Assembly (NCBI RefSeq): GCF_029892045.1
Contig: NZ_CP120367.1
Span: 1,984,001 to 2,048,000, forward strand
DNA length: 64,000 nucleotides
DNA from: Sinorhizobium numidicum
GTDB taxonomy: Bacteria > Pseudomonadota > Alphaproteobacteria > Rhizobiales > Rhizobiaceae
Reading direction: 5' to 3'
Below the pieces are notes generated by a model. The model saw nothing but the letters and a program-made list of their open reading frames with translations. It ran no database searches and had not been told where the DNA came from. Of this stretch, positions 7,402 to 59,854 are shown piece by piece. Each line of letters starts with the position of its first letter. Position 1 is the stretch's first letter. Made by a program: the position numbers and the translations under genes.

Positions 7402-7407
7402 TACACT

Positions 7408-8516: not shown

Positions 8517-8523
8517 ACCGCTA

Positions 8524-8553: not shown

Positions 8554-8572
8554 TCCGCCCAACATTCGCTGG

Positions 8573-9154: not shown

Positions 9155-9157
9155 TCC

Positions 9158-10564: not shown

Positions 10565-10578
10565 TAGGGAGACCAGCC

Positions 10579-40711: not shown

Positions 40712-40986
40712 GGCCGAGCTTCCGTTTCTTTTGCAAGCGCCGCATCGTGGCACGTCTCGACTTCGTGGCTGACCGTGTCGCGCGTTATCACCAACCAGCG
40801 ACGGCAGCCGGATGTGTGGTGCCAATATTCCCGATGGCATCCCCTCGGATTGTCGCGGAGATAGACATAGTCCATCCATGCCTTCGTGCCGGCATCGCTG
40901 GCCGGGCGAGGCAGAACCGCACCCTGGATCGTGAACTCTTCCCTGGGCCGAGCGCCGCAGTGAGGGCATGAAATGATGCTTGCCAC
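40708..40986 (-). CDS. soxD: Sarcosine oxidase-type delta subunit / N-methylglutamate dehydrogenase subunit B
   Basis: Zinc-binding small subunit of 92 residues. CPHCGARPREEF gives two zinc cysteines; WMDYVYLRDNPRGCHREYWH and HTSGCRRWLVITRDT are family blocks with further His/Cys ligands. It lies between soxB and soxA, with a 4-bp overlap to soxA. Its length and motifs match SoxD throughout. Confidence 0.93.
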   Translation of the reverse strand: MASIISCPHCGARPREEFTIQGAVLPRPASDAGTKAWMDYVYLRDNPRGCHREYWHHTSGCRRWLVITRDTVSHEVETCHDAALAKETEARP

Positions 40987-42263: not shown

Positions 42264-42343
42264 CGAAAGCGTCCCTTGAAAGTCTTCGCCCTTGATAAAG
42301 CACTGTGAATTGATTGAATTGCACCTGAGAGACGAATTTCTAC

Positions 42344-44081: not shown

Positions 44082-44149
44082 ATTCCTGTGGGTTGATTGT
44101 ATCGATCCGCTCTGTTAGCACTTGCAGCATCGACAACGGAGATGGGGCC

Positions 44150-45055: not shown

Positions 45056-45089
45056 ACAGGCAATTGACCCATCACAAGGACTACCACCC

Positions 45090-45795: not shown

Positions 45796-47124
45796 ATGTC
45801 TTACCACAATCCCTATACGCCGCCGCGCAAATCCGCGACCTTCGACGACTACACGCTTGCTGAAATCCGCCGCGCGGCCGCCACCGGAATTTACGACATC
45901 CGGGGCGCCGGCACCAAACGCAAGGTTCCGCATTTCGACGATCTCCTCTTCCTCGGCGCATCGATTTCCCGGTACCCGCTCGAGGGTTACCGTGAAAGAT
46001 GCGACACGTCCGTCGTTCTTGGTACGCGCTTCGCCAAGAAGCCGATCCGACTGAAAACGCCGATCACGATTGCCGGTATGAGTTTTGGCGCACTTTCCGG
46101 TCCAGCTAAGGAAGCGCTTGGGCGCGGCGCGACAATTGCCGGCACCTCGACCACCACCGGCGACGGGGGCATGACGGACGAGGAGCGCGGCCACAGCGAA
46201 ACGCTGGTCTACCAATATCTGCCGTCCCGCTACGGGATGAACCCGAAGGACCTGCGCCGCGCCGATGCCATCGAAGTGGTTGTCGGCCAGGGAGCCAAGC
46301 CCGGTGGCGGTGGCATGCTGCTCGGGCAGAAGATTTCCGACCGTGTCGCCGAGATGCGCACCCTGCCGAAGGGCATCGACCAGCGTTCCGCCTGCCGCCA
46401 CCCGGATTGGACGGGCCCGGACGATCTGGAGATCAAGATCCTCGAACTGCGCGAGATCACCGATTGGGAGAAGCCGATCTATGTCAAAGTCGGCGGCGCG
46501 CGCCCCTACTACGACACGGCCCTGGCGGTAAAAGCTGGAGCAGACGTGGTCGTGCTCGACGGCATGCAAGGGGGCACGGCAGCGACGCAAGATGTCTTCA
46601 TCGAGCATGTCGGCATGCCGACGCTCGCCTGCATCCGGCCGGCGGTCCAGGCGCTCCAGGACCTCGGCATGCACCGCAAAGTCCAGCTCATCATCTCGGG
46701 TGGCGTTCGCTCCGGCGCGGATGTCGCTAAGGCGCTGGCGCTCGGCGCGGATGCGGTCGCGATCGGTACCGCGGCCCTGGTGGCACTCGGTGACAACGAC
46801 CCGCGCTGGGAGGAGGAATATCAAAAGCTCGGTACCACAGCCGGGGCCTATGACGACTGGCACGAGGGCAAGGACCCAGCCGGCATCACCACGCAGGATC
46901 CGGAACTCATGAAGCGGCTTGACCCGATCGCCGCCGGCCGCCGGCTTGCCAATTTCCTGAAGGTGATGACGCTGGAGGCGCAGACGATTGCGCGTGCCTG
47001 CGGCAAGAACCATCTGCACAATCTGGAGCCGGAGGATCTCTGTGCGCTGACAATCGAAGCATCGGCGATGGCCCAGGTGCCGCTCGCCGGCACGAGCTGG
47101 ATCCCGGGCAAGGGAGGGTTCTGA
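45796..47124 (+). CDS. glxD: FMN-dependent glutamate synthase-type subunit / N-methylglutamate synthase subunit C
   Basis: Protein of 442 residues of the glutamate-synthase central/FMN domain: SFGALSGPAKEALGRGATIA, TTTGDGGMTDEERGH, KPGGGGMLLGQKIS, KPIYVKVGGARPYYD, VVLDGMQGGTAATQD and ISGGVRSGADVAKALALGAD. A cysteine-bearing RSACRHPDW may contribute to an iron-sulfur site. It would reductively transfer the amine onto 2-oxoglutarate; with methylamine-derived glutamine analogue the product is N-methylglutamate. Confidence 0.92.
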   Translation: MSYHNPYTPPRKSATFDDYTLAEIRRAAATGIYDIRGAGTKRKVPHFDDLLFLGASISRYPLEGYRERCDTSVVLGTRFAKKPIRLKTPITIAGMSFGALSGPAKEALGRGATIAGTSTTTGDGGMTDEERGHSETLVYQYLPSRYGMNPKDLRRADAIEVVVGQGAKPGGGGMLLGQKISDRVAEMRTLPKGIDQRSACRHPDWTGPDDLEIKILELREITDWEKPIYVKVGGARPYYDTALAVKAGADVVVLDGMQGGTAATQDVFIEHVGMPTLACIRPAVQALQDLGMHRKVQLIISGGVRSGADVAKALALGADAVAIGTAALVALGDNDPRWEEEYQKLGTTAGAYDDWHEGKDPAGITTQDPELMKRLDPIAAGRRLANFLKVMTLEAQTIARACGKNHLHNLEPEDLCALTIEASAMAQVPLAGTSWIPGKGGF

Positions 47125-47209
47125 GCCCGTCTGCTGTGCCCGATCATTTGGGAGGATGGCGGGCGATCCTTACGAAAGCAAAGTGTCTGATAATCCAAAG
47201 GGGAACCAC

Positions 47210-48517
47210 GTGACACTAGATCTCTCAAGCTACGCCGAAGAGCACGGCGTCAAATACTTCATGATCAGCTATACGGACCTTTTCGGCGGACAGCGCGCCA
47301 AACTGGTTCCGGCAGAAGCGATCGCCGATATGCAGAGGGATGGCGCGGGGTTCGCCGGTTTCGCGACCTGGCTCGATCTGACGCCCGCACATCCCGATCT
47401 GTTCGCGGTTCCCGATGCCTCCTCGGTCATCCAGCTTCCCTGGAAGAAGGAGGTTGCCTGGGTTGCCGCCGATTGCGTCATGGATGGCGCGCCCGTTGAA
47501 CAGGCACCCCGCGTCGTGCTGAAAAGACTTCTTGCCGAAGCCACCCGGGAAGGCTTGCGCGTCAAGACCGGCGTCGAAGCCGAATTCTTTTTGATATCTC
47601 CGGACGGATCGAAGATCTCCGATGAATACGATACGGCAGAAAAGCCCTGCTACGATCAGCAGGCGGTCATGCGCCGCTACGATGTGATTGCAGAGATCTG
47701 CGATTACATGCTCGAACTCGGCTGGAAGCCCTACCAGAACGACCATGAGGACGCGAATGGCCAGTTCGAGATGAACTGGGAATATGACGATGCGCTGAAG
47801 ACCGCGGACAAGCATTCCTTCTTCAAGTTCATGGTGAAATCGGTGGCGGAAAAGCATGGGCTGCGCGCCACCTTCATGCCGAAGCCGTTCAAGGGGCTGA
47901 CCGGCAATGGCTGCCATTGCCATATTTCCGTCTGGGACACCGAGGGGGAGGTGAATGCCTTTGCGGATAAGGCCGCCGAGTTCGGGCTTTCGGCGCAGGG
48001 CCGGACCTTCCTGGGCGGCATCATGAACCACGCCAGCGCGCTCGCCGCGGTCACCAATCCGACGGTGAATTCCTACAAGCGCATCAATGCGCCGCGCACG
48101 ATTTCTGGCGCAACCTGGGCGCCGAACACGGTCACCTGGACCGGCAACAACCGCACCCATATGGTGCGCGTACCAGGCCCCGGCCGTTTCGAACTGCGCC
48201 TGCCTGACGGCGCCGTCAACCCGTATCTGCTGCAGGCCATCATCGTCGCGGCTGGCCTTTCCGGCATACGCTCCAAGGCCGATCCCGGTCCGCACCATGA
48301 TATCGACATGTACAAGGACGGTCACACGGTGACCGATGCGCCGAGGCTGCCGCTCAACCTGCTCGATGCGCTTCGCGAATACCAGAAGGATGAAGTGCTG
48401 CAGGAGGCGCTTGGACGGGAGTTTTCGGCCGCCTATCTCAAACTGAAGTACAGTGAATGGAACAGCTACTGCTCTCAATTCAGCAGGTGGGAGCACGAGA
48501 CGACGCTCGACATTTGA
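47210..48517 (+). CDS. glnT: Glutamine synthetase-family ligase / gamma-glutamylmethylamide synthetase
   Basis: Protein of 435 residues from a GTG start; GGGGA lies 5 nt ahead, and the length equals that of rhizobial GlnT. Glutamine-synthetase blocks are visible: VKTGVEAEFFLIS, NDHEDANGQFEMNWEYDD, GNGCHCHISVWD, and NRTHMVRVPGPGRFELRLPD. The family includes GlnT and GMAS; GMAS joins methylamine to glutamate with ATP. Location directly after the mgs-like genes favours GMAS. A longer frame from ATG 47156 is possible but lacks a good ribosome site. Confidence 0.88.
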   Translation: MTLDLSSYAEEHGVKYFMISYTDLFGGQRAKLVPAEAIADMQRDGAGFAGFATWLDLTPAHPDLFAVPDASSVIQLPWKKEVAWVAADCVMDGAPVEQAPRVVLKRLLAEATREGLRVKTGVEAEFFLISPDGSKISDEYDTAEKPCYDQQAVMRRYDVIAEICDYMLELGWKPYQNDHEDANGQFEMNWEYDDALKTADKHSFFKFMVKSVAEKHGLRATFMPKPFKGLTGNGCHCHISVWDTEGEVNAFADKAAEFGLSAQGRTFLGGIMNHASALAAVTNPTVNSYKRINAPRTISGATWAPNTVTWTGNNRTHMVRVPGPGRFELRLPDGAVNPYLLQAIIVAAGLSGIRSKADPGPHHDIDMYKDGHTVTDAPRLPLNLLDALREYQKDEVLQEALGREFSAAYLKLKYSEWNSYCSQFSRWEHETTLDI

Positions 48518-48615: not shown

Positions 48616-49500
48616 ATGAACAAGTTCATCTTAACCGTATCCTGCAAATCGACGCGCGGGATCGTGGCGGCCATTTCCGGCTATCTCGCCGAACAGGGCT
48701 GCAACATCATCGACAGCTCGCAGTTCGACGATCTCGGCACAGGCCGCTTTTTCATGCGCATCAGCTTCATCTCCGAGGAGGGAGCCGGCCGCGAGACGCT
48801 CGAAAAGGGCTTCGCGCCGATCGCCGAGAAATTCGCCATGGAAGCCGAGATGCGTGATGCGAATGAGCGCATGAAGGTGCTGTTGATGGTGTCGCGGTTC
48901 GGCCACTGCTTGAACGACCTGCTCTACCGCTGGAAGATCGGCGCGCTGCCGATCGATATCGTCGGCGTCGTCTCCAACCATTTCGACTACCAGAAGGTGG
49001 TCGTCAACCACGACATCCCCTTCCACCACATCAAGGTGAGGAAGGAGAACAAGCCGCAGGCCGAGGCGCGGCTGATGGAGATCGTCGAGCAGAGCGAGGC
49101 CGAGCTGATCGTGCTCGCCCGCTACATGCAGGTGCTGTCCGACCCGCTCTGCAAGAAGATGTCGGGGAAAATCATCAACATCCACCATTCCTTCCTGCCG
49201 AGCTTCAAGGGCGCCAATCCGTACAAGCAGGCCTATGAGCGCGGCGTCAAGCTGATCGGCGCGACGGCGCACTACGTCACCGCCGATCTCGATGAGGGCC
49301 CGATCATCGAGCAGGACATCGCCCGCATCACCCATGCGCAGAGCGCCGAGGACTATGTGTCGATCGGCCGCGACGTCGAAAGCCAGGTGCTGGCGCGCGC
49401 CGTGCACGCCCATATCCATCGGCGCTGCTTCATCAACGGCAACCGCGTCGTCGTCTTCCCGCCGAGCCCCGGCAGCTATGCCTCCGAGCGCATGGGCTGA
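48616..49500 (+). CDS. purU: Formyltetrahydrofolate deformylase
   Basis: Protein of 294 residues. An N-terminal ACT domain (about 5-85, LTVSCKSTRGIVAAISGYLA) is followed by the formyltransferase fold: LLMVSRFGHCLNDLLYRWKI, IVGVVSNHFDY, and IINIHHSFLPSFKGANPYKQ with catalytic His residues and the final Asp in DLDEGPIIEQD. It releases formate and tetrahydrofolate from 10-formyl-THF. Next to methylamine-type genes it can regenerate THF after N-methyl oxidation. Last gene before a terminator. Confidence 0.94.
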   Translation: MNKFILTVSCKSTRGIVAAISGYLAEQGCNIIDSSQFDDLGTGRFFMRISFISEEGAGRETLEKGFAPIAEKFAMEAEMRDANERMKVLLMVSRFGHCLNDLLYRWKIGALPIDIVGVVSNHFDYQKVVVNHDIPFHHIKVRKENKPQAEARLMEIVEQSEAELIVLARYMQVLSDPLCKKMSGKIINIHHSFLPSFKGANPYKQAYERGVKLIGATAHYVTADLDEGPIIEQDIARITHAQSAEDYVSIGRDVESQVLARAVHAHIHRRCFINGNRVVVFPPSPGSYASERMG

Positions 49501-49531
49501 CTACAGTCCGGCCGGTGTTGAAGCCAAACAG

Positions 49532-49564
49532 CCCGTTCGCAGATGCGGACGGGTTTGTCTTTTG
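49532..49564 (+). terminator. Rho-independent terminator of the glx-glnT-purU run
   Basis: Stem CCCGTTCGC / GCGGACGGG with an AGAT loop and one G-U pair, followed by TTTGTCTTTT. It lies about 30 bp after the purU stop and cleanly separates it from the next operon. Confidence 0.8.
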
Positions 49565-49693: not shown

Positions 49694-49725
49694 TTGACAT
49701 CACGATATTATGGCATACCATAGTA
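49694..49725 (+). promoter_or_regulatory. Promoter with GntR-type operator for the 49.7-58.9 kb operon
   Basis: TTGACA (49694-49699) is followed at 16 bp by TACCAT (49716-49721). Over the -10 region lies TATTATGGCATACCATAGTA (49706-49725), an 8-4-8 dyad with one mismatch. The same dyad, perfect, is found at 59835-59854 upstream of the GntR gene that converges on this operon. The overlap with the promoter fits repression. Confidence 0.7.
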
Positions 49726-49749: not shown

Positions 49750-50352
49750 ATGCCGATCGAAATCCGCAAAACGCTCTTGCAAGTCGAGACGACGCTGATT
49801 GAGGGCGGCAAGGCTGCGCCAGTGCCTCTGAAGCTCTATTCGGCGATTGCCGTTATAAAAAATCCTTGGGCAGGCAGCGGTTACGTTGACAACCTGAAGC
49901 CAGAGATTCACGCCTGCGCCCCGGTACTCGGAGAACTGCTGACGAAGATGATCATCGAGGCGGTGGGCTCGGGCGAAGCCGTCGAGGCTTATGGCAAGTC
50001 GGCGATCGTCGGCCTTGATGGCGAGCTAGAGCACGCTTCGGCCCTGATCCATACACTCCGCTTCGGCAATCACTACCGCCACGCGGTCGGCGCCAAATCC
50101 TATCTCGCCTTCTGCAACATACGCGGCCCCGCGAATGCTCCCGTGATGATCCCGTTGATGGACAAGAACGATGAGGGCCGGCGCTCCCATTATCTGACCA
50201 TCCAGACGTCGATCCCGGATGCTCCGGCCGCCAACGAGATCGTCGTGGCGCTTGGTGCCTCGGTCGGGGGTCGCCCGCATCACCGGATCGGCGATCGCTA
50301 CCAGGATCTGAAGGAACTTGGACAGGACGTCGCCAATCCGGCCGGCGTCTGA
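49750..50352 (+). CDS. AA_synth (DUF1185) family protein
   Basis: Protein of 200 residues of the so-called amino acid synthesis family (PF06684). Blocks include KLYSAIAVIKNPWAGSGYV, GKSAIVGLDGELEHASALIH, ALGASVGGRPHHRIGDRYQD. The family name rests on weak evidence and its reaction is unknown. GGAG lies 6 nt before the ATG at 49750; an in-frame ATG 12 nt upstream is less likely. First gene of the operon with hydrolase and flavin-dependent genes, which suggests a catabolic rather than biosynthetic role here. Confidence 0.82.
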   Translation: MPIEIRKTLLQVETTLIEGGKAAPVPLKLYSAIAVIKNPWAGSGYVDNLKPEIHACAPVLGELLTKMIIEAVGSGEAVEAYGKSAIVGLDGELEHASALIHTLRFGNHYRHAVGAKSYLAFCNIRGPANAPVMIPLMDKNDEGRRSHYLTIQTSIPDAPAANEIVVALGASVGGRPHHRIGDRYQDLKELGQDVANPAGV

Positions 50353-50378
50353 CGCCTTCGACTTCGGGAATAAAAAAG

Positions 50379-51206
50379 ATGTTTCACGAAGATCTGACGC
50401 AACGGGGAAGCTTTCGTGCCGAGCGCTTGGTAACGGCGAATGGCGCCGCCTATGTCGAGGTCGGCACTGGCGAACCGCTCGTCCTCGTTCATGGTGTCGG
50501 CATGCGGCTCGAGGCCTGGGCACCGCAGCTCACCGCCCTTTCGGCGAAGAACCGGGTGATCGCCGTCGACATGCCTGGCCATGGCGAAAGCGGCAAGCTT
50601 GAGACCGGCGCACGCCTTGAGGATTTCGTCGCCTGGCTTGGCGTCTTTCTCGATGACCTGCGACTTGATGGCGTCAGCCTCGCCGGTCACTCGATGGGTG
50701 CGCTGATTTCCGGCGGAGCCGCCGCGACCTTCGCCGATCGCATTCGTCGGGTGGCGCTTCTGAATGGCGTCTACCTGCGCGATCCTGCCGCCAAGGCTGC
50801 TGTCATTGCCCGGGCGCGTACGATCAGCAGCGGCACCGTCGATGTCGATGGCCCCTTGAGGCGCTGGTTCGGCGAAGGCAGCGAGAGGTCGTCCGCCTAC
50901 CGTTCGACGCGCAGTTGGTTGCAAGCAGTCGATCCCGATGCTTACGCGACGGCGTACAATGCTTTCGCCCACGGTGACGACGTTTATGCGGAATGCTGGT
51001 CCAAGGTAAATTGCCCGGCGCTGTTTTTGACCGGCTCGCAGGACCCGAATTCGACGCCTGAAATGGCCCATGCCATGGCCGATGCTGCGCCGCGCGGCTG
51101 GGCTCACATCGTCGAAGGGCATCGCCATATGGTCAACCTGACCGCGCCGGAGCTGGTGAACGAGCTCCTTGCAGACTGGCTTTCACGAGGAGGAGAAACG
51201 TCATGA
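50379..51206 (+). CDS. Alpha/beta-fold hydrolase
   Basis: Hydrolase of 275 residues. The oxyanion region is LVLVHGVGMRLEAW, the nucleophile elbow GHSMGAL (Ser near 105), the acid in LTGSQDPNSTPEMA and the catalytic histidine in VEGHRHMVN. No signal peptide. It resembles RutD and enol-lactone or carbamate hydrolases in size. It overlaps the flavin-reductase gene by 4 bp. It would cleave an ester, amide or C-C bond in the product made by the monooxygenase downstream. Confidence 0.88.
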   Translation: MFHEDLTQRGSFRAERLVTANGAAYVEVGTGEPLVLVHGVGMRLEAWAPQLTALSAKNRVIAVDMPGHGESGKLETGARLEDFVAWLGVFLDDLRLDGVSLAGHSMGALISGGAAATFADRIRRVALLNGVYLRDPAAKAAVIARARTISSGTVDVDGPLRRWFGEGSERSSAYRSTRSWLQAVDPDAYATAYNAFAHGDDVYAECWSKVNCPALFLTGSQDPNSTPEMAHAMADAAPRGWAHIVEGHRHMVNLTAPELVNELLADWLSRGGETS

Positions 51207-52135
51207 CGACAGCCTCTTTCGATCCGCGCGCACTGCGCGATACCTTTGGTGCGTTTCTGACCGGCGTAACCGTGGTCACCGCAAAGGATGTCACGGGATC
51301 GCCGATCGGCTTCACCGCCAATTCCTTCGCCTCCGTTTCCATCGATCCGCCGCTGCTGCTTGTTTGTCTTGCCAAGACATCACGCAATTTTGCGACAATG
51401 ACCTCCGCGAAGGGTTTCGCCGTCAACGTCCTGTCGGAGAAGCAGATCGCCGTCTCAAACACCTTCGCCAAGCCGGTGGAAGATCGTTTTGCAACCGTCG
51501 AGTGGATGGTCGGCCCCTATGGTGCTCCGATCCTTGGCGGTGTGGCGGCATGGTTTGACTGTTCGATGCACAAGATCGTCGATGCGGGTGACCACGCCAT
51601 TTTGATTGGTCGCGTCGAGGCTTTTGAAAACGGCGTCATGGCTGGGCTCGGTTTCGCGCGCGGCAGCTATGTCACGCCGGCTCTTTCCGGCAGGGCAGTT
51701 TCGGCCGCTGCCGAGGGAGCGCCGTTGATCGCGGCCGTTGTCGAGCGCAACGGCGAAGTGCTGTTGATTCCGACCGAGGATGGCCGCTGGTGCCTGCCGC
51801 AGATGCCGCTGCAGAGCGGGGGGACCCTTCGAGGGCTGCAGGATTACTTGCGTAGCGCAACCGGGTTGGGCGTGGAGGTCGGTTTCCTTTACTCGGTCTA
51901 CGAGAACAAGACGTCGGGGCATCAGCACATCGTCTATCGCGCTTCCGCCGAAGCCGGAGAAAGCGGCGCCGGGCAGTTCTTTGCCATCGCCGATCTGCCG
52001 CTCGACGAGATGGACAGCCCCGCCACCGCCGACGTGCTGAAACGCTTTGCGGCCGAAAGCGTGCTCGGCAATTTCGGGATTTATGTTGGCGACGAGAAGC
52101 AGGGCAAAGTCCACCCATTCAATAAGAGGGCCTGA
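51203..52135 (+). CDS. Flavin reductase fused to a degenerate Nudix-like domain
   Basis: Fusion of 310 residues. Residues 1-160 form the flavin-reductase domain (LRDTFGAFLTGVTVVTAKD, GFTANSFASVSIDPPLLLVC, FAVNVLSEKQ, DHAILIGRVEAFE) that supplies reduced flavin. Residues 175-295 look like a Nudix fold (LIAAVVERNGEVLLIPTEDG, RWCLPQMPLQSGG, LYSVYENKTSGHQHIVYRA). The Nudix box is not conserved: the REx2EE position reads LRSATGLG and lacks the metal-binding glutamates. Four-bp overlap with the hydrolase and 3 bp to the monooxygenase gene. Confidence 0.85.
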   Translation: MTTASFDPRALRDTFGAFLTGVTVVTAKDVTGSPIGFTANSFASVSIDPPLLLVCLAKTSRNFATMTSAKGFAVNVLSEKQIAVSNTFAKPVEDRFATVEWMVGPYGAPILGGVAAWFDCSMHKIVDAGDHAILIGRVEAFENGVMAGLGFARGSYVTPALSGRAVSAAAEGAPLIAAVVERNGEVLLIPTEDGRWCLPQMPLQSGGTLRGLQDYLRSATGLGVEVGFLYSVYENKTSGHQHIVYRASAEAGESGAGQFFAIADLPLDEMDSPATADVLKRFAAESVLGNFGIYVGDEKQGKVHPFNKRA

Positions 52136-52138
52136 TCG

Positions 52139-53179
52139 ATGAAATTCTCGCTTTTCGTGCATCTCGAGCGGCTGAACCCCGGTCAGACCGACGAGAGCCT
52201 CTATGAGGAATTCGTGCAGCTCTGCGAGATCGCCGACCGTGGAGGCTTCTCCGCCATCTGGACCGGCGAGCATCATGGGATGAGCTTCACGATCGCGCCC
52301 AACCCCTTCCTCACGCTCGCCGATCTCGCCCGTCGCACACGGAACGTCCGTCTCGGCACAGGTACGGTGATTGCGCCGTTCTGGCACCCGATCAAGCTCG
52401 CGGGCGAAGCGGCGATGACCGACATCATCAGCGGCGGCCGGTTGGACATCGGCATCGCCCGCGGCGCCTATAGTTTCGAATATGAGCGGCTTTTGCCCGG
52501 GCTCGATGCCTGGGGCGCGGGCCAGCGCATGCGCGAGCTCATCCCGGCGATCAAGGGCCTGTGGGAGGGCGACTATGCACATGACAGCGAGTTCTGGAAA
52601 TTCCCGCCCACCACTTCTGCCCCGAAGCCTTTGCAGAACCCGCACCCGCCGATCTGGGTGGCGGCGCGCGACCCCAATAGCCACGAATTCGCCGTCGCCA
52701 ACGGCTGCAACGTTCAGGTCACCCCGCTCTGGAACGGCGATGACGAGATCGCCAGCCTGATGGACCGGTTCGAAGCCGTCTGCGCCAAGAACTCTTCGGT
52801 GACGCGGCCGAAAATCATGCTGCTGCAGCATGCCTATGTCGGCACCGACGAGGCCGATCTGGAGCAGGCGGCGAAGGAAATGAGCGTCTATTACAACTAT
52901 TTCTTCGCCTGGTTCAAAAACGAAAAGCCGATCCGGCAGGGCCTGATCGAAACCATTACCGAAGAAGAGATGGCTGAGAACGCGCTGGTGGCGCCGGAGG
53001 TAATGCGCAGGAATCTGGCGGTTGGAACGACAGAAGAAGTGATCGCCAGACTGAAGACCTACGAGGCGATGGGCTATGACGAATATTCCTTCTGGATCGA
53101 TACGGGCATGAGCTTCGAGCGCAAGAAGGCCTCGCTGCAGCGCTTCATCGCCGAAGTCATGCCGGCATTTGCGGAGTAG
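52139..53179 (+). CDS. LLM-class flavin-dependent monooxygenase
   Basis: Luciferase-like monooxygenase of 346 residues. Family blocks are IWTGEHHGMSF, VRLGTGTVIAPFWHPIKLAG, ISGGRLDIGIARGAYSFEY and PHPPIWVAARDPNSHEFAV. It uses reduced flavin, presumably made by the adjacent reductase, and oxygen. Relatives act on sulfonates, amines, pyridine rings or, as in RutA, uracil. The substrate cannot be read. It lies 4 bp before the aldehyde dehydrogenase start. Confidence 0.92.
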   Translation: MKFSLFVHLERLNPGQTDESLYEEFVQLCEIADRGGFSAIWTGEHHGMSFTIAPNPFLTLADLARRTRNVRLGTGTVIAPFWHPIKLAGEAAMTDIISGGRLDIGIARGAYSFEYERLLPGLDAWGAGQRMRELIPAIKGLWEGDYAHDSEFWKFPPTTSAPKPLQNPHPPIWVAARDPNSHEFAVANGCNVQVTPLWNGDDEIASLMDRFEAVCAKNSSVTRPKIMLLQHAYVGTDEADLEQAAKEMSVYYNYFFAWFKNEKPIRQGLIETITEEEMAENALVAPEVMRRNLAVGTTEEVIARLKTYEAMGYDEYSFWIDTGMSFERKKASLQRFIAEVMPAFAE

Positions 53180-53183
53180 GAAC

Positions 53184-54647
53184 ATGCAAAGCTTTCAGTC
53201 CTACATCGACGGCAAGTTCACGGATGGAGAAACCCGGTTCGAGAGTGTCGATCCGGCCTCCGGCCGCGCCTGGGCAGAGATGCCGGAGGCGCGGGAAGCA
53301 GACGTCGATCGTGCGGTCGAAGCTGCGCACAACGCCCTTTACGAGGGGCCGTGGGCGAAGACGACTGCCACCCAGCGTGGCAAGCTGCTCTATCGGCTGG
53401 CCGATCTTGTTGCCGAGAATGCCGGAAGGCTTGCCGAACTCGAGACGCGGGATACCGGCAAGATCATCCGCGAGACCTCGGCACAGATCGCCTACGTCGC
53501 CGAATACTATCGCTACTATGCCGGCATCGCCGACAAGATCGAAGGCTCTTATCTGCCGATAGACAAGCCGGACATGGATGTCTGGCTGCGCCGCGAGCCG
53601 ATCGGCGTTGTGGCCATGGTCGTGCCCTGGAACAGTCAGCTTTTCCTGTCGGCCGTGAAAATCGGCCCGGCGCTGGCGGCTGGCTGCACCATGGTGGTGA
53701 AGGCCTCGGAGGACGGGCCTGCGCCGCTTCTCGAATTTGCCCGGCTCGTACATGAGGCGGGCTTTCCCGCCGGCGTGGTCAATATCCTCACCGGCTTTGG
53801 CCCCTCCTGCGGTGCGGCGCTCAGCCGCCACCCTAAGATCGACCACATCGCGTTTACCGGCGGGCCGGAGACGGCGCGCCACGTGGTTCGCAATTCGGCG
53901 GAGAATCTCGCTTCGACCTCATTGGAACTCGGCGGCAAATCCCCCTTTATCGTCTTTGCCGATGCCGATCTCGAAAGCGCTGCAAATGCGCAGGTCGCGG
54001 GCATCTTTGCCGCGACCGGCCAGAGCTGCGTGGCGGGTTCGCGGCTGATCATCGAGCGCAGCGTCAAGGACCGCTTCCTTGCAATATTGAAGGCGAAGGC
54101 GGAAGCGATCCGGATCGGCAGCCCGCTCGACATGGCGACCGAAGTAGGACCGCTCGCGACGCAGCGTCAGCGGGACCATGTCGAAGCGCTGGTCGCCCGC
54201 TCGATTGCCGCCGGTGCCCGGCTGGTCACGGGCGGCAAGGTGGTGCAGGGCGACGGCTTCTACTATCAGCCGACTATTCTCGATTGCGACGGCAGCGCCT
54301 CGCCGTCGCTCGATAACGAATTTTTCGGACCGGTACTCTCAGTTCTGTCCTTCGAGACGGAGAAAGAGGCGCTCCACCTTGCCAATGACACGCACTACGG
54401 ACTCGCTTCCGGCGTTTTCACACAGAATCTCACCCGCGCGCATCGTCTGATGAAGGGAATCCGCGCTGGAATCGTCTGGGTCAACACCTACCGCGCCGTT
54501 TCGCCGATTGCGCCCTTCGGCGGCTTTGGCCTTTCCGGCCATGGGCGCGAGGGCGGGATCGCGGCCGCCCTCGACTACACCAGAACGAAAACCATCTGGC
54601 TCAGGACATCGGACGACCCGATTCCCGATCCTTTCGTCATGCGGTGA
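53184..54647 (+). CDS. NAD(P)-dependent aldehyde dehydrogenase
   Basis: Protein of 487 residues. Cofactor region VVPWNSQLFLSAVKIGPALA, glycine loop FTGGPETARHV, general-base Glu in LELGGKSPFIVF and catalytic Cys in GQSCVAGSRLI. It ends with the usual NTYRAVSPIAPFGGFGLSGH block. It should oxidise an aldehyde released by the upstream steps to a carboxylate. GGAG and TAGGA precede the ATG at 53184, which is preferred over an in-frame start 15 nt upstream. Confidence 0.94.
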   Translation: MQSFQSYIDGKFTDGETRFESVDPASGRAWAEMPEAREADVDRAVEAAHNALYEGPWAKTTATQRGKLLYRLADLVAENAGRLAELETRDTGKIIRETSAQIAYVAEYYRYYAGIADKIEGSYLPIDKPDMDVWLRREPIGVVAMVVPWNSQLFLSAVKIGPALAAGCTMVVKASEDGPAPLLEFARLVHEAGFPAGVVNILTGFGPSCGAALSRHPKIDHIAFTGGPETARHVVRNSAENLASTSLELGGKSPFIVFADADLESAANAQVAGIFAATGQSCVAGSRLIIERSVKDRFLAILKAKAEAIRIGSPLDMATEVGPLATQRQRDHVEALVARSIAAGARLVTGGKVVQGDGFYYQPTILDCDGSASPSLDNEFFGPVLSVLSFETEKEALHLANDTHYGLASGVFTQNLTRAHRLMKGIRAGIVWVNTYRAVSPIAPFGGFGLSGHGREGGIAAALDYTRTKTIWLRTSDDPIPDPFVMR

Positions 54648-54651
54648 CGGG

Positions 54652-54939
54652 ATGTTCTACGAGATCAGGACTTATCGGCTGAAGAACGGAGCGATCCCCG
54701 CTTACCTCAAGGTGGTGGTGGAAGAGGAGGGGATCGGCGTCCAAAAAAAGCACCTGGGCGAGCTCGTCGGTTACTTCTTCTCCGAAATCGGCCCCGTCAA
54801 CGAGATCGTCCATATCTGGGCCTTCGGCAGTCTTGACGATCGAGACAGGCGCCGGGCCGCACTGATGGCAGACCCTGCGTGGCAGGCGTTCCTGCCCAAG
54901 ATACGCGACCTTATAGAATCGCGGAAAACAAAATCATGA
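54652..54939 (+). CDS. NIPSNAP-family protein
   Basis: Protein of 95 residues with the NIPSNAP pattern: FYEIRTYRLKNGAIPAYLKV, ELVGYFFSEIGPVNEIVHIW, then RRAALMADPAWQAFLPKIRD. These are ferredoxin-like alpha/beta-barrel dimers of unknown reaction, common in catabolic operons. It starts 4 bp after the aldehyde dehydrogenase stop and is probably part of the same transcript. A small isomerase or chaperone-like role is possible. Confidence 0.86.
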   Translation: MFYEIRTYRLKNGAIPAYLKVVVEEEGIGVQKKHLGELVGYFFSEIGPVNEIVHIWAFGSLDDRDRRRAALMADPAWQAFLPKIRDLIESRKTKS

Positions 54940-55025
54940 AGCCGGCGCCGTTTTCGCCCGCGGGCGGCAAGGCGCCATACGACGATCAATAAGCAAAAAC
55001 TCTCGGAACCACGGAGTAAGGGAAC

Positions 55026-56036
55026 ATGAAAAAGAAATTCGCTTCGGCGGCGCTTGCCGCCTTCCTATCAACAGCACTCCCGGCAGCGGCTGCCGAGATC
55101 GTTTTTTCGAGCTGGGGTGGCACGACGCAGGATGCCCAGAAGGCTGCCTGGGCCGACAAATTCACTGAAAAGACCGGCATCAACGTTCTTCAGGACGGGC
55201 CGACCGACTACGGCAAGCTGAAGGCCATGGTCGAAGCGGCGGGTGTGACCTGGGATGTGGTCGACGTGGAAGGCGACTATGCAGCGCAGGCAGGCAAGAA
55301 CGGCCTGCTAGAAAAGCTCGATTTCTCCGTGATCGACAAATCCAGGCTCGATCCGCGCTTCGTCACCGATTATTCGGTCGGCAGTTTCTATTATTCCTTC
55401 GTCATCGGCTGCAACAAGGATGCGGTCAGTGAGTGTCCGAAGACCTGGGCGGATCTGTTCGACACGGAAAAATTCCCAGGTAAGCGCACCTTCTACAAGT
55501 GGTCCGCTCCGGGCGTGATCGAAGCGGCGCTGCTGGCCGACGGCGTGCCGGCCGACAAGCTCTACCCGCTCGATCTCGACCGCGCCTTTAAGAAACTCGA
55601 TACCGTCAAGGCCGACATCATCTGGTGGTCCGGTGGCGCACAATCACAGCAGCTTCTCGCCTCCGCCGAGGCGCCCTTCGGCAGCCTATGGAACGGGCGC
55701 ATGACAGCGCTCGCCCAAACCGGCGTCAATGTCGAAACCTCCTGGGAGCAGAACATCACGGCGGCGGATTCGCTCGTTGTGCCCAAGGGAGCGAAGAACA
55801 AGGAAGCGGCGATGCAGTTCATCGCGCTCGCAACATCGGCGGAAGCGCAGGCGGAACTCGCCAAGGCGACCGGCTATGCGCCAATCAACCTCGATTCCCC
55901 GAAGCTGATGGATGAGGCGCTGGCCAAGACGCTGCCGGATCGGCAAACGGCAAACCAGGTCAATGCCGACATGAACTACTGGGCGGAAAATCGCGATGCG
56001 ATCGGCGAGCGCTGGTATGCCTGGCAAGCGAAGTAA
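55026..56036 (+). CDS. ABC substrate-binding protein, polyamine type (PotD-like)
   Basis: Periplasmic receptor of 336 residues with a signal peptide (MKKKFASAALAAFLSTALPA, cut after AAA). Mature blocks EIVFSSWGGTTQDAQKAAWA, FTEKTGINVLQDGPTDYGKL and the C-terminal PINLDSPKLMDEAL match the SBP_bac_8/PotD group. It delivers the operon's substrate to the permeases. The PotD acidic amine-binding pocket is only partly recognisable, so the ligand may not be a polyamine. An intercistronic hairpin follows. Confidence 0.9.
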   Translation: MKKKFASAALAAFLSTALPAAAAEIVFSSWGGTTQDAQKAAWADKFTEKTGINVLQDGPTDYGKLKAMVEAAGVTWDVVDVEGDYAAQAGKNGLLEKLDFSVIDKSRLDPRFVTDYSVGSFYYSFVIGCNKDAVSECPKTWADLFDTEKFPGKRTFYKWSAPGVIEAALLADGVPADKLYPLDLDRAFKKLDTVKADIIWWSGGAQSQQLLASAEAPFGSLWNGRMTALAQTGVNVETSWEQNITAADSLVVPKGAKNKEAAMQFIALATSAEAQAELAKATGYAPINLDSPKLMDEALAKTLPDRQTANQVNADMNYWAENRDAIGERWYAWQAK

Positions 56037-56044
56037 TTAAGGGA

Positions 56045-56083
56045 GATGGCGGAAGAAGGCCGCCGAGGCCTTCTTCCGCCATC
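56045..56083 (+). terminator. Long intercistronic hairpin after the binding-protein gene
   Basis: A perfect 17-bp stem (GATGGCGGAAGAAGGCC paired with GGCCTTCTTCCGCCATC, loop GCCGA) starts 9 bp after the stop. There is no U-run. It probably protects the upstream message or limits read-through, giving more binding protein than permease. Confidence 0.7.
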
Positions 56084-56161
56084 CCGCACAGACGCCCGGT
56101 CTAACGGCGTATCAGGCGCCCTTGTCGGACCGGCGCGGCCTCTTTCATGGGAGAGACAGCC

Positions 56162-57037
56162 ATGTTGTCGCGGATCGATGCTCAGACTACAAGACCGCAG
56201 ACGGCTGCGCGCATCCGAAGGTCGACCGATTTCGATTTGACCTTGCCGGCGCTCGGTCTTCTGGTCCTGTTCTTCGTCGTGCCGGTCGTCATCCTGCTGG
56301 CGCGCAGCGTAACGGAGCCCGCGCCAGGGCTCGGCAACTATGCCGAACTGCTTGGCTCGTCCACCTATCTTCGGATATTCGCGAACACGTTCATCGTCTC
56401 GGGACTGGTAACGTTGGTCTCTCTGGTGATCGGATTCCCTGTCGCCTGGGCGCTGGCGATCATGCCCAGCCGGGCTGCTTCGATCGTTTTCGCGATCCTG
56501 CTTCTCTCCATGTGGACCAACCTGCTTGCGCGGACCTATGCATGGATGGTGCTTCTGCAACGGACCGGCGTCATCAACAAAATGCTCATGGGCATTGGGC
56601 TGATCGATCAGCCTCTGCCGCTCGTCAACAACCTGACCGGGGTTACGATCGGCATGACCTATATCATGCTGCCCTTCATCATCCTGCCGCTCTATGGCGT
56701 GATCCGGAAGCTCGACCCCGCGATCCTGCAGGCGGCCGCGCTTTGCGGTGCCAACCGCTGGCAGGCACTTACCCGGATTCTACTGCCGCTGACCCTCCCG
56801 GGCATGGCGGCCGGCGCACTCATGGTCTTCGTGATGTCGCTTGGCTATTTCGTCACCCCGGCTCTGCTCGGCGGCACGGCGAACATGATGCTCGCCGAAC
56901 TCATCGCGCAGTTCGTTCAGTCGCTGGTCAACTGGGGCATGGGTGGTGCGGCGGCGCTGGTGCTGCTGGTGGTGACGCTGGCGCTCTATGCCGTTCAACT
57001 CCGCTTCTTCGGCACTGATCGGATGGGAGGGGGCTGA
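56162..57037 (+). CDS. ABC transporter permease, PotB-like
   Basis: Membrane subunit of 291 residues with six predicted helices beginning at about 30 (LPALGLLVLFFVVPVVILLA). The EAA loop is AALCGANRWQALTRILLPLT. PotB-type order is confirmed by a PotC-like gene next. GGGAGAG lies 6 nt before the ATG at 56162, preferred over an in-frame start 15 nt upstream. Confidence 0.92.
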   Translation: MLSRIDAQTTRPQTAARIRRSTDFDLTLPALGLLVLFFVVPVVILLARSVTEPAPGLGNYAELLGSSTYLRIFANTFIVSGLVTLVSLVIGFPVAWALAIMPSRAASIVFAILLLSMWTNLLARTYAWMVLLQRTGVINKMLMGIGLIDQPLPLVNNLTGVTIGMTYIMLPFIILPLYGVIRKLDPAILQAAALCGANRWQALTRILLPLTLPGMAAGALMVFVMSLGYFVTPALLGGTANMMLAELIAQFVQSLVNWGMGGAAALVLLVVTLALYAVQLRFFGTDRMGGG

Positions 57038-57038
57038 A

Positions 57039-57839
57039 ATGCTGTTGAATTTCGACCGGCTCGGCTGGTGGAAGCTTGTTCTCGTCGGCATCACCCTGCT
57101 GACGTCGGCGTTCCTGCTTCTGCCCATTCTCTTCATTGCGGCGCTCTCCTTCGGCTCCTCGCAATGGCTCATCTTTCCGCCGCCGGGCTGGACGCTGAAG
57201 TGGTATCAGGAGCTCTTTGCCGATCCGCGCTGGCTCGAGTCCGCCTGGACGAGTTTCCGTATAGCCGTCATCGTTACGGTTCTCTCGGTTCTGCTCGGCC
57301 TCGTCACCTCGTTCGGCTTGACGCGCGGCCGTTTCATCTTCCGCGAGGCGCTGAAGGCGCTGTTCCTGACGCCGATGATATTGCCCGTCGTCGTCCTCGC
57401 GGTAGCGCTCTACGCTTTTTTCCTGCAAATCGGCCTGAACGGAACGTTGACCGGTTTCGTCATCTCCCATCTTGTGCTCGCATTGCCCTTTTCGATCCTG
57501 TCGATAACCAGCGCGCTCGAAGGCTTCGACAAGTCGATCGAGGACGCCGCAGTGCTTTGCGGCGCTTCCCCGCTCGAGGCCAAGATCAGGGTGACCTTGC
57601 CGGCGATCAGTCACGGCGTTTTCTCTGCCGCGGTCTTCTCGTTCCTCACATCCTGGGATGAAGTCGTGGTTGCGATCTTCATGTCCAGCCCGACGCTTCA
57701 GACGCTTCCCGTCAAGGTCTGGTCGACATTGCGCCAGGACCTGACTCCGGTTGTCGCCGCCGCCTCAACGCTTCTCATATTGCTGACCGTGCTCTTGATG
57801 GTGCTCGCGGCGCTCGTTCGCAAAGGACTGAAATCATGA
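57039..57839 (+). CDS. ABC transporter permease, PotC-like
   Basis: Second permease, 266 residues. Helices begin at about 10 (WKLVLVGITLLTSAFLLLPI). The EAA loop is AAVLCGASPLEAKIRVTLPA. It starts 1 bp after the PotB-like stop and overlaps the ATPase gene by 4 bp (ATGA), so the three are translationally coupled. Confidence 0.92.
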   Translation: MLLNFDRLGWWKLVLVGITLLTSAFLLLPILFIAALSFGSSQWLIFPPPGWTLKWYQELFADPRWLESAWTSFRIAVIVTVLSVLLGLVTSFGLTRGRFIFREALKALFLTPMILPVVVLAVALYAFFLQIGLNGTLTGFVISHLVLALPFSILSITSALEGFDKSIEDAAVLCGASPLEAKIRVTLPAISHGVFSAAVFSFLTSWDEVVVAIFMSSPTLQTLPVKVWSTLRQDLTPVVAAASTLLILLTVLLMVLAALVRKGLKS

Positions 57840-58918
57840 CGAAACCCTTCCTGCAAATCCGCGGAATCCGCAAGGAATATGGTCCCGTGACGGCGGTCCA
57901 CGATGTCACTCTCGACGTGGCGCAAGGCGAATTCCTGACCTTTCTCGGTCCCTCCGGATCGGGCAAGAGTACGACCCTCTATATTCTCGCCGGCTTCGAA
58001 AACCCGAGCCGTGGCGACATCCTGCTGAACGGCCACTCCTTGCTGTCGACGCCGTCGCACAAGCGCAATATCGGCATGGTGTTCCAGCGCTACACGTTGT
58101 TCCCTAACCTTTCCGTTGGCGAGAACATCGCCTTTCCGCTTAAGGTGCGCCGGCGGCCGAAGGCCGAGGTAGACGCCAAGGTTCGCGAGATGCTCAAGCT
58201 CGTGCGGCTTGAAGGTTTCGAGGACCGGAAGCCCGCGCAGATGTCCGGGGGACAGCAGCAGCGTGTCGCGCTTGCGCGCGCTCTTGCCTATGACCCGCCC
58301 GTGTTGCTGATGGATGAGCCGCTGTCGGCGCTCGACAAGAAGCTGCGCGAGGAAATCCAACATGAGATCCGGCGCATTCACCAACAGACTGAAGTGACGA
58401 TCCTCTATGTGACGCATGATCAGGAGGAGGCGCTGCGGCTTTCCGACCGGATCGCCGTATTCTCGAAGGGCGTGATCGATCAGATCGGCACGGGACCGGA
58501 GCTTTATGCAAATCCGGCAACGCGTTTCGTCGCCGAATTCATCGGCGATAGCGACTTTCTACCCTGTGATCTGCTCAGGGCGGGCAATGGCAGGGCGGAT
58601 ATTTCGCTTGGCGGTACGGCCGTCGTTGCAAATGTGCCGTTCCACGGCCAGCCTGCCGTTGGGGGCAGGGCCGCGCTGATGCTGCGCCCGGAGCGCCTGA
58701 AGTTGATGAGATCGGCGCCCCCGGCGGCATCGGCGCTCGCCGTCACCGTCAGCGACATCACCTTCCTCGGCAACAATATTCATGTCGCGACTGAGACGGC
58801 AAAGGGCGACGGGCTAGCGATCAGGCTTCCCTTCGGGCACGAGGCGATTTCCAGCCTGAGCCGCGGCGACACCGTTTGGCTCGGATTCGATCCCGCCTCG
58901 GCGCATGTGTTCTGCTGA
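57836..58918 (+). CDS. ABC transporter ATPase, PotA-like
   Basis: ATPase of 360 residues. Walker A GPSGSGKST (about 40-48), signature MSGGQQQRVALARAL and Walker B VLLMDEPLSALD, then switch histidine in YVTHDQEEAL. The C-terminal TOBE domain (about 285-355) has GGRAALMLRPERLKL. It energises the importer. Last gene of the operon; the convergent GntR gene ends 95 bp downstream. Confidence 0.95.
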   Translation: MTKPFLQIRGIRKEYGPVTAVHDVTLDVAQGEFLTFLGPSGSGKSTTLYILAGFENPSRGDILLNGHSLLSTPSHKRNIGMVFQRYTLFPNLSVGENIAFPLKVRRRPKAEVDAKVREMLKLVRLEGFEDRKPAQMSGGQQQRVALARALAYDPPVLLMDEPLSALDKKLREEIQHEIRRIHQQTEVTILYVTHDQEEALRLSDRIAVFSKGVIDQIGTGPELYANPATRFVAEFIGDSDFLPCDLLRAGNGRADISLGGTAVVANVPFHGQPAVGGRAALMLRPERLKLMRSAPPAASALAVTVSDITFLGNNIHVATETAKGDGLAIRLPFGHEAISSLSRGDTVWLGFDPASAHVFC

Positions 58919-59013: not shown

Positions 59014-59709
59014 TTATGCGGTTTTGCCCGCCTGAGAATCGGCGAGAAGCGACTGGGCGATTGCAGCCGCGCTTCCTACATGAGCGTTCGCTGCACGATA
59101 GGCCGCCTCTCCATCGCCCGCTTTGATCGCGTCGATAATCCGCTGCATCTGCGCCGGACCTTCCTTGTCGCGGCCGACCGTCTTGATCGTCATCGATCGC
59201 AGATGATTGATCCTCACGGTGATGGAGTTGACGATGCTCCAGGCGACGTGGCGGCCGGATTTCTCGAAAAGCGTACGGTAAAATTCTGTGGTGGCGGTCA
59301 GCACATCGGCGAGCTCTCTCTTGGCGTAGCTTGCACGGATGCGCTCCAGGATCGTTTCAAGCTGCGCCACCAGCGTCGGATCCTTTGCCTCGGCGCAGGC
59401 TTTGGCGGCAATACCCTCAAGAGCGCCGCGGATCTCGTAAATCTGCTTGGCGTCTTCTGGCGTCGTTTCCGCGACGATCGGGCCGCGATTCGGCAGGATC
59501 GTGACGAGCCCTTCCGATTCCAAATGGCGCAATACTTCACGAACGACCGTTCGGCTGACCCCGAGTTGGTCGCAGAGGTCGCGTTCGACAAGCCGCTCAC
59601 CCGCCTTGAAGTGCATGTTGACGATCGCGTCGCGCATTTTCTCCAATGCAAGTTCGCGAAGGGTTTTTTCCGGGCGGAGAACCCTCATAGGCAATTCAGA
59701 CATGCTCAT
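59014..59709 (-). CDS. GntR-family regulator (FadR/FCD type) of the catabolic operon
   Basis: Regulator of 231 residues. The winged helix (about 15-80) reads AGERLVERDLCDQLGVSRTV and VREVLRHLESEGLVTILPNR. The FCD domain follows (YEIRGALEGIAAKACAEA, AWSIVNSITVRINHLRSMTI, AYRAANAHV). I start at ATG 59709, with GGA 9 nt upstream; a longer in-frame start would read through the operator. It points towards the end of the operon. The 20-bp dyad upstream of it is shared with the operon promoter. Confidence 0.9.
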   Translation of the reverse strand: MSMSELPMRVLRPEKTLRELALEKMRDAIVNMHFKAGERLVERDLCDQLGVSRTVVREVLRHLESEGLVTILPNRGPIVAETTPEDAKQIYEIRGALEGIAAKACAEAKDPTLVAQLETILERIRASYAKRELADVLTATTEFYRTLFEKSGRHVAWSIVNSITVRINHLRSMTIKTVGRDKEGPAQMQRIIDAIKAGDGEAAYRAANAHVGSAAAIAQSLLADSQAGKTA

Positions 59710-59834
59710 AAACCGTCGTCCTCTCCGACTGATGTACCCGTTCGTTCGTCTCCACCGCCGCACGCGTTGGCGACGACCTTGGTATGTCACGCACTCTTCG
59801 CCTGGCGCTCTCCAATCCAATCCGGCAGCCGAAG

Positions 59835-59854
59835 TATTATGGAATGCCATAATA
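59835..59854. promoter_or_regulatory. Operator upstream of the GntR gene
   Basis: TATTATGGAATGCCATAATA is a perfect 8-4-8 inverted repeat, 126 bp before the GntR start. It matches the promoter dyad of the 49.7-58.9 kb operon (49706-49725) in 15 of 16 arm bases. It marks autoregulation and the regulator's target. Confidence 0.7.

Follow-up and report, generated by a model that had tools for sequence, protein, structure and literature searches.

A Ten-Gene Cluster and Its Counterpart in Acinetobacter

The stretch of DNA analysed here (the window, 64,000 nucleotides) comes from a Sinorhizobium numidicum genome of 6.72 Mb in three contigs and carries, between positions 49750 and 58918, ten genes in the same direction, from an AA_synth protein to the ATPase of an ATP-binding cassette (ABC) importer, followed by a convergent GntR regulator. 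This cluster very probably specifies the known pathway that opens the ring of trigonelline (N-methylnicotinate), a plant alkaloid, rather than an unknown one. Its genes are given below with the names of the trigonelline (tgn) operon of Acinetobacter baylyi, the letters of TgnA, TgnB, TgnC and TgnD being those that we assume these genes to bear, which does not apply to TgnF and TgnE.

49750..50352, + strand: AA_synth protein (PF06684, 221.9 bits; 200 amino acids), TgnF orthologue
50379..51206, + strand: alpha/beta hydrolase, TgnD orthologue by Pfam and by the position in the A. baylyi gene order
51203..52135, + strand: flavin reductase (PF01613), TgnA orthologue; 379 bits to 3RH7, "Hypothetical oxidoreductase"
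52139..53179, + strand: luciferase-like monooxygenase (LLM; PF00296, 196.3 bits), TgnB orthologue
53184..54647, + strand: aldehyde dehydrogenase (ALDH; PF00171), TgnC orthologue, in the same place as the A. baylyi ALDH
54652..54939, + strand: NIPSNAP protein (PF07978, 93 bits)
55026..56036, + strand: periplasmic binding protein, Atu4243 class; 613 bits to 4EQ7
56147..57037, + strand: ABC permease 1 (PF00528)
57039..57839, + strand: ABC permease 2 (PF00528), with a start set from the upstream sequence and the 801-base length annotated in S. meliloti
57836..58918, + strand: ABC ATPase (PF00005, PF08402)
59014..59850, - strand: convergent GntR regulator that probably represses the operon and corresponds to the GntR gene of a C58-like locus (L124)

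The presence and order of the ten genes were verified by open reading frames and Pfam matches, in agreement with the initial annotation, as is the AA_synth start at 49750; the starts of AA_synth, ALDH (53184), NIPSNAP (54652) and permease 2 (57039) were chosen from the upstream sequence and the annotated lengths of relatives. The gene classes had been read as a reduced-flavin monooxygenase opening an N-heterocycle, a hydrolase and a dehydrogenase finishing the chain and an importer for a charged compound, and this reading stands. Uracil degradation (Rut) shares the flavin reductase, the LLM and the alpha/beta hydrolase with the window as classes, whereas the window proteins score far under the cut-offs of the corresponding models (RutF: 89 vs. 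254.75 bits; RutD: 50.6 vs. 238.5 bits), and the Rut pyrimidine pathway was rejected; no RutA model is found among the 25 matches listed of 28 for the LLM.

In the type strain of A. baylyi (DSM 14961, locus L022), the genes AA_synth, hydrolase, flavin reductase, LLM and ALDH stand in an order identical to that of the window, with protein identities of 72%, 51%, 42% (over 97% of the length), 70% and 70%, respectively. The two LLMs align without gaps over 345 residues, and the AA_synth protein is 74% identical to that of Acinetobacter baumannii. Moreover, a GntR gene (41%) lies directly upstream of the A. baylyi operon on the opposite strand. The window thus holds the TgnF-D-A-B-C gene order, with orthologues of the reductase, the dehydrogenase and the hydrolase, as well as a TgnB-type oxygenase that both identity and clade (see below) designate as orthologous to that of A. 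baylyi. Database names point the same way: NCBI names three of the top Acinetobacter homologues of the LLM (P0121-P0123) “flavin-dependent trigonelline monooxygenase oxygenase component”, and at JGI several rhizobial relatives bear the trigonelline-monooxygenase name, starting with one of 89% identity. On homology and context, we therefore hold with high confidence that the ten genes form a tgn/trc-type operon for trigonelline catabolism.

The likeness between the two operons (a core five-gene order, a GntR gene close by, 42-72% identity and a promoter palindrome that has one mismatch in A. baylyi) comes with differences at the periphery. Acinetobacter has an NCS1-type permease and, by eye, a porin where the window has the ABC system; it shows no NIPSNAP match, whereas the window has a NIPSNAP gene; a succinate semialdehyde dehydrogenase (SSADH) gene adjoins its operon, whereas none adjoins that of the window; and genes of the mgs-gmaS-purU type adjoin the operon in the window. 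As a separate observation, the C-terminal ~150 residues of the flavin reductase (51203-52135) have no Pfam match and look NUDIX-like by eye, and in Rhizobium etli a NUDIX protein is encoded by a gene of its own close to the operon (L003, 16810-17277).

That the pathway would be undescribed, as initially proposed, is wrong, because the Acinetobacter operon has the same gene order and a known substrate; likewise, the statement that the sequence does not identify the substrate no longer holds, trigonelline being indicated by this match. What still favours an undescribed pathway is that AA_synth and NIPSNAP have no known proven reaction, so that some roles are open; set against a known operon of same order, high identity and known substrate, we consider it highly improbable. 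As to AA_synth itself, the initial remark that it has no proven reaction remains correct so far as found: in the excerpt of PMC7913881, TgnF of A. baylyi is presented as a homologue of HcdD, a DUF1185 (i.e., AA_synth) protein, and as stimulating the TgnE-dependent oxidation of succinate semialdehyde (citing Perchat et al. 2018 on trigonelline degradation), and a comparable stimulation was sought for HcdD without success. The consequence is that a supposed unknown pathway disappears and that a common rhizobial operon gains a substrate.

Conservation of the Core and Choice of Substrate

The genome contigs were scanned with the A. baumannii LLM homologue as a query, and the best 80 of the 547 relatives were retained as loci; this set, like a larger one of 106 loci used below, includes near-duplicates, and many loci were collected via the LLM itself. 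Among these best 80 of 547, 79 have AA_synth alongside the LLM, the sole exception lying on a contig that stops 1.6 kb upstream of the LLM, and the order AA_synth-hydrolase-reductase-LLM is kept in 74. A lack of co-conservation between AA_synth and the monooxygenase had been set beforehand as a possible refutation, and the opposite was found. In a tree of 26 LLM rows, the window and A. baylyi share a clade of 19 rows with a support of 100/100, while the LLM of a paralogous cluster on the pAt plasmid of A. fabrum and those linked to the binding protein Pf622 (see below) fall outside; the outgroup is very distant, which leaves the root untrustworthy, and a mutual attraction of the two sister branches is possible.

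In contrast to this core, the periphery varies. At an E-value limit of 1e-15, the NIPSNAP gene is found in nine of 17 loci of the family and in a single one of the best 80 of 547; of the latter, 34 have the binding protein (33 by a stricter rule). Transporters in the same 80 loci comprise NCS1 without ABC in 27 (two of which also have a major facilitator superfamily (MFS) transporter), ABC only in 19, NCS1 and ABC together in 14, MFS only in two, and none in 18, some of which are cut by contig ends. The idea that the ABC importer is a simple replacement of the Acinetobacter NCS1 permease was dropped, the pattern not being clean, with both systems present together in 14 loci.

Some observations weigh against trigonelline as the substrate of the window enzymes. 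LLMs of 42-50% identity sit in sister clusters with other importers and other gene orders, which implies that the wider family diversifies; the flavin reductase (42%) and the hydrolase (51%) are less similar to A. baylyi than the other core genes; no SSADH gene adjoins the window operon, four homologues (47-65%) lying elsewhere in the genome; and the names given to LLM relatives, which are transferred by similarity, also include “LLM class flavin-dependent oxidoreductase” elsewhere at NCBI and, for many relatives at JGI, “alkanesulfonate monooxygenase SsuD/...”. One alternative is that the enzymes attack a different N-methylpyridinium carboxylate or N-heterocycle (e.g., homarine or N-methylisonicotinate), the substrate having shifted since the split from Acinetobacter. 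Yet the window LLM belongs to the clade of the A. baylyi LLM and has 70% identity with it, and a close operon of S. meliloti lies on a replicon that is required for growth on trigonelline (see below), which makes such a shift quite unlikely. Homarine itself was not retained: among the papers listed in a literature search, none dealt with homarine catabolic genes judging by title and abstract opening.

One of the sister clusters, on pAt of A. fabrum 1D1487 (L010, 7466-14256), consists of a reductase, an ALDH, an LLM (42%), a hydrolase, a carboxymuconolactone decarboxylase, a NIPSNAP protein, an AA_synth protein (51%) and a glyoxylate/hydroxypyruvate reductase, with a ProX-type betaine importer nearby; its substrate is plausibly another betaine-like N-heterocycle.

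Rhizobial Counterparts

The megaplasmid pSymA of S. meliloti carries, near nifA and nifB, all ten genes in the order of the window (59-92% identity), plus an SSADH gene, and the ten genes are likewise present in strain 2011 (L012). The GntR regulator of the window is 66% identical to the one encoded upstream of the S. meliloti operon. The SSADH of this operon reaches only 34-37% with the corresponding ALDH of relatives. Within the plasmid collection, the nearest relatives of the window LLM are the copies of Sinorhizobium fredii and S. americanum (~90%). The two arrangements differ in their surroundings: in S. meliloti, the block lies near nif genes, with GntR upstream and SSADH at its end, whereas in the window it lies beside mgs-gmaS-purU, with a convergent GntR gene downstream. 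Alfalfa seeds reportedly release trigonelline, going by the title of a cited paper.

According to the accessible part of PMC4207669, growth on 10 mM trigonelline separates wild-type S. meliloti, which grows, from a delta-pSymA strain, which does not. Trigonelline uptake and catabolism in rhizobia are stated as established in the passage available from PMC12489286, which cites Goldmann 1991 for catabolism genes in the symbiotic region of pSym, while an extract of PMC10228743 cites Boivin 1990 on induction under symbiotic conditions. From replicon and content, we infer that the pSymA block is the trc region.

The Importer and the Atu4243 Class

The binding protein scores 79 bits with the PotD model (cut-off 582), and polyamine import was discarded; hence, the initial label of a “polyamine-type” importer holds for the superfamily but not for a polyamine system. 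Its closest solved relative is 4EQ7/4EUO (613 bits, 85% identity over 313 residues), which we take to be Atu4243, the protein binding gamma-aminobutyric acid (GABA) in Agrobacterium fabrum. Both its sequence and its GABA-site residues place it in the Atu4243 class. The portion of PMC3907764 (2014) at hand presents Atu4243 as a protein with high specificity for GABA whose expression is totally repressed by the product of atu4232, derepression mechanisms being reported as unknown at that time.

A section of PMC12999171 lists the residues that form the GABA site in Pf622, the protein on which the iGABASnFR sensor is built. At W9, T13, F100, F/Y102, W202, R205, D228 and Y264 (Pf622 numbering), the letters of the window protein are those of 4EQ7. 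When 4EQ7 and Pf622 are aligned with 106 operon-linked binding proteins, among which are that of the window and the two Pf622-like ones, seven of the eight sites do not vary apart from a total of three gaps; at the remaining site, 103 rows have Y and five have F. As 96 of the 272 comparable columns are invariant overall, this is modest evidence when taken alone, and these residues do not separate GABA from trigonelline: the operon context carries the argument. The cage of Trp, Phe and Tyr with one Arg and one Asp suits a pyridinium carboxylate.

This context was examined in 394 genomes of the family. A close homologue of the binding protein (E ≤ 1e-150) is found in 44 of them and a trigonelline-type LLM (E ≤ 1e-140) in 56, which include all 44. 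In 39 presumed Agrobacterium genomes, the binding protein is present in 16, always inside a cluster that runs from mgs-gmaS-purU-GntR to the operon (purU being in the stretch fetched for 15 of the 16). These two counts (44/44 and 16/16) were not selected via the LLM; one genome (G190) is in both. The binding-protein gene also stands beside the LLM in all 17 loci of one set and all 26 of another.

The C58-like locus L124, which encodes the 4EQ7 sequence at 100% identity, begins with AraC, XRE, mgsABC, gmaS, purU, GntR and four further genes, then continues with AA_synth, hydrolase, reductase, LLM, ALDH, NIPSNAP, binding protein, permeases and ATPase, SSADH coming next (L125). Its GntR protein is 61% identical to that of the window. 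Three of the four further genes (7372-11059) specify an amino-acid-type importer (binding protein, permease and ATPase) and the other an iron alcohol dehydrogenase. L124 counts 12 genes from GntR to the binding protein, a number equal to that from Atu4232 to Atu4243, and by this match the 12 genes appear to be a trigonelline regulon. The arrangement is thus much like that of the window, with binding proteins 85% identical, but for the extra importer and alcohol dehydrogenase and for the literature, which calls it a GABA-binding system. From its anatomy and conservation, this described GABA system appears to be a regulon for trigonelline, which would narrow the 2014 question on Atu4243 derepression, as worded in the part of PMC3907764 at hand, to this compound.

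In these conditions, the ligand of the window importer is somewhat more probably trigonelline than anything else. The alternative is that the importer serves GABA and joined the operon because GABA and trigonelline both end in succinate semialdehyde. It draws on the reports that Atu4243 is highly specific for GABA and that a Pf622-based sensor is highly selective for GABA over related compounds (left unnamed in the passage available from PMC12999171), on the retention of the Pf622 GABA site in the 106 operon-linked proteins (with F or Y at one position) and on the SSADH gene belonging to the S. meliloti operon. Yet the annotations of four loci with the importer show no GABA aminotransferase close to the operon, each of the 44 genomes that have a close homologue has the trigonelline monooxygenase as well, and the binding-protein gene lies in an operon behind a conserved palindrome. 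This case is itself weakened by the 15 Acinetobacter loci among the best 80 of 547, all of which have NCS1 and no such ABC importer, and by the co-existence of both systems in 14 of the 80; a GABA importer is possible, if doubtful. Trigonelline uptake through this system has two further points against it: the class is reported to consist of selective GABA binders, and 12 of the 56 LLM-positive genomes have no close binding protein (four have a 65-67% one in the operon and eight have none in the region fetched). The literature search found no co-mention of Atu4243 and trigonelline.

Guvacine, arecaidine and nipecotic acid are classical cyclic mimics of GABA, and trigonelline is related to them as their aromatic N-methyl counterpart; because of this resemblance, GABA binding by the Atu4243 class would be mimicry in reverse. 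More generally, the Atu4243 class, possibly with Pf622, may comprise the physiological importers of operons opening N-methylpyridinium-carboxylate rings, trigonelline being both the natural ligand of Atu4243 and, directly or via an intermediate, the inducer of the Atu4232 regulon; the evidence tips only slightly towards this view. When a fragment of Pf622 was used as a query, a 96% relative was recovered in genome G699, with matches in six of 299 genomes of the phylum. Its gene neighbours in G699 are AA_synth, ALDH, hydrolase, GntR, reductase, LLM and an NCS1 permease, i.e., the Pf622-linked cluster is a ring-opening cluster of a sister type to the trigonelline operon. Since its LLM is only 48% identical and lies outside the TgnB clade, the claim is weaker for Pf622 than for Atu4243. 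Should this view of the class hold, proteins studied as GABA sensors and employed in neuroscience would have a further natural ligand, and it would be worth checking whether trigonelline interferes with such sensors. In both loci concerned (L173 in G699 and L174 in G480), the Pf622-like gene lies amid LLM, AA_synth, ALDH, hydrolase, GntR and NCS1 permease genes; L173 also encodes a protein in which DHBP synthase and GTP cyclohydrolase II are fused (flavin supply), along with a NUDIX protein and what looks by eye like a chemoreceptor.

A Conserved Palindrome at the Predicted Promoter

The transcription signals found between purU and AA_synth are as follows.

49530..49555, + strand: terminator-like stem-loop after purU, with an 11-pair stem followed by TGTCTTTT
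49694..49721, + strand: sigma-70-like promoter, TTGACA - 16 - TACCAT, just before AA_synth
49711..49720, strand not applicable: palindrome TGGCATACCA over the -10 region, probable (predicted) GntR site

One such stem-loop was found vs. 0.2 expected in shuffled sequences, and two promoter-like sites (one per strand) vs. 0.2 expected in the 401-base stretch. Because the hairpin and the promoter-like site precede it, the block from AA_synth onward looks like its own transcription unit. The palindrome TGGCATACCA is the only match to TGGYATRCCA in the window, where 0.16 are expected.

Among loci with at least 250 bases available upstream, TGGYATRCCA lies within 300 bases of AA_synth in 144 of 161, compared to 1.9% of 300-base windows drawn at random from these loci, and in 141 of 158 distinct upstream sequences. 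It is widespread across groups: 13 of 16 Acinetobacter loci, 27 of 33 in the beta/Xanthomonas group, 29 of 31 on alphaproteobacterial genome contigs, 16 of 16 in presumed Agrobacterium, 48 of 53 other loci of the family and eight of eight on plasmids, against one of two in sister clusters, the palindrome not being found upstream of AA_synth in the A. fabrum pAt cluster (L010). The 17 loci without it include A. baylyi, which has one mismatch. Its position is equally regular, i.e., 36-51 bases before the assumed AA_synth start in each of the 70 loci printed, a few of which have a second copy further up, with distances of 96 bases at L007 and 62 bases at L009. At L124, a second copy stands before the extra importer, behind the GntR gene. 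The motif presumably conforms to the operator type of this GntR class, and both its position and its conservation make it a probable binding site of the GntR regulator.

Methylamine and Formate Genes beside the Operon

The genes upstream of the operon are the following.

37219-37755, - strand: soxG, sarcosine-oxidase-like (PF04268 SoxG, 30.2 bits)
37748-40969, - strand: soxA, sarcosine-oxidase-like (TIGR01372, 1452.5 bits)
41013-42431, - strand: soxB, sarcosine-oxidase-like (TIGR01373, 718.8 bits)
44093-45055, + strand: mgsABC-like glutamine amidotransferase domain (PF13522/PF13537)
44937-45776, + strand: mgsABC-like GXGXG subunit (PF01493)
45796-47124, + strand: mgsABC-like glutamate-synthase-like subunit (PF01645)
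47156..48517, + strand: gmaS, gamma-glutamylmethylamide synthetase (methylamine capture), best solved relative Rhodovulum GmaS
48616..49500, + strand: purU, 10-formyl-tetrahydrofolate deformylase (TIGR00655, 334.4 bits, above the cut-off)

Two elements of the N-methylglutamate pathway are recognizable. The best match of GmaS is a solved and characterised enzyme, that of Rhodovulum sp. 12E13 (7CQL series, 639.5 bits), followed by “glutamate--methylamine ligase” (340.6 bits), while the best entry named glutamine synthetase has 247.8 bits. MgsABC is recognized by domains alone, amidotransferase, GXGXG and glutamate synthase standing in a row. The sarcosine-oxidase-like genes, which are divergent to mgsABC-gmaS-purU, are possibly N-methylglutamate dehydrogenase (mgd) genes in view of the neighbouring mgs and gmaS, the models that they match not separating Mgd from sarcosine oxidase; no soxD-like gene was seen among them, soxB and soxA being ~44 bases apart with no room for one, and the soxA frame has no SoxD domain. 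Independently, sarcosine-oxidase-like genes (42% and 34%) also occur in A. baylyi (L022, 249-5000), within ~6.5 kb upstream of AA_synth.

The mgs-gmaS-purU arrangement recurs in presumed Agrobacterium, in Phyllobacterium brassicacearum (L087) and in L146, and parts of it are found in Gemmobacter, Cypionkella and an uncultured Rhodobacteraceae genome (L069, L075, L077, L073). At the level of genomes (n = 394), gmaS (E ≤ 1e-180) is present in 45 of the 56 LLM-positive vs. 83 of the 338 LLM-negative members of the family (odds ratio 12.6), and by genus in 25 of 30 vs. 21 of 79 (odds ratio 13.8, p 1.4e-7), the collapse to genera being the sole correction for kinship; the chance estimate for gmaS linkage is crude and without kinship correction. 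Opposing a tight coupling, 11 of the 56 LLM-positive genomes have no gmaS, and gmaS and LLM lie within 25 kb of each other in only seven of the 45 genomes with both, many of which are fragmented drafts; similarly, gmaS occurs in flanks of up to 9 kb in only four of the best 80 of 547 loci.

TgnD releases formate and methylamine. From this context, the operon and mgs-gmaS-purU would form a single unit in which no fragment of trigonelline, not even the methyl nitrogen, goes unused, which leads to the prediction that trigonelline feeds methylamine metabolism in rhizosphere bacteria. No co-mention of trigonelline and the N-methylglutamate pathway was found among the matches listed in the literature search. 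In Paraburkholderia sprentiae (L008, 1-8506), the trigonelline operon is preceded by glnT, an N-formylglutamate deformylase gene, an FAD oxidoreductase gene and electron transfer flavoprotein (ETF) genes, perhaps another way of handling methylamine and formyl groups.

Proposed Pathway

Following the reaction steps known from the literature, the ABC importer would bring trigonelline into the cell, where the flavin reductase TgnA would supply reduced flavin to the LLM TgnB, which, with O2, would convert the N-methylpyridinium ring into a lactone bearing an N-methylformamide. The lactone would be oxidised by the ALDH TgnC to a methylene-succinate, which the hydrolase TgnD would split into succinate semialdehyde, CO2, formate and methylamine. 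The semialdehyde would reach the tricarboxylic acid (TCA) cycle through TgnE, a succinate semialdehyde dehydrogenase encoded elsewhere, with the AA_synth protein TgnF assisting in an unproven way. GmaS would capture the methylamine, to be passed on by the mgs and sarcosine-oxidase-like (mgd) genes, and one-carbon units would go via folate, with PurU returning formate. Finally, the GntR regulator would repress the operon at the promoter palindrome until trigonelline or an intermediate is present. With respect to the tgn operon, we see as new the putative importer of the Atu4243 “GABA-binding” class, the candidate operator TGGYATRCCA before AA_synth and the proposed link with the adjoining methylamine and formate genes.

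Elsewhere in the window (28199-32363, minus strand), there are genes for molybdopterin-binding and 2Fe-2S subunits of the xanthine/aldehyde-oxidoreductase type and for a cytochrome c protein.

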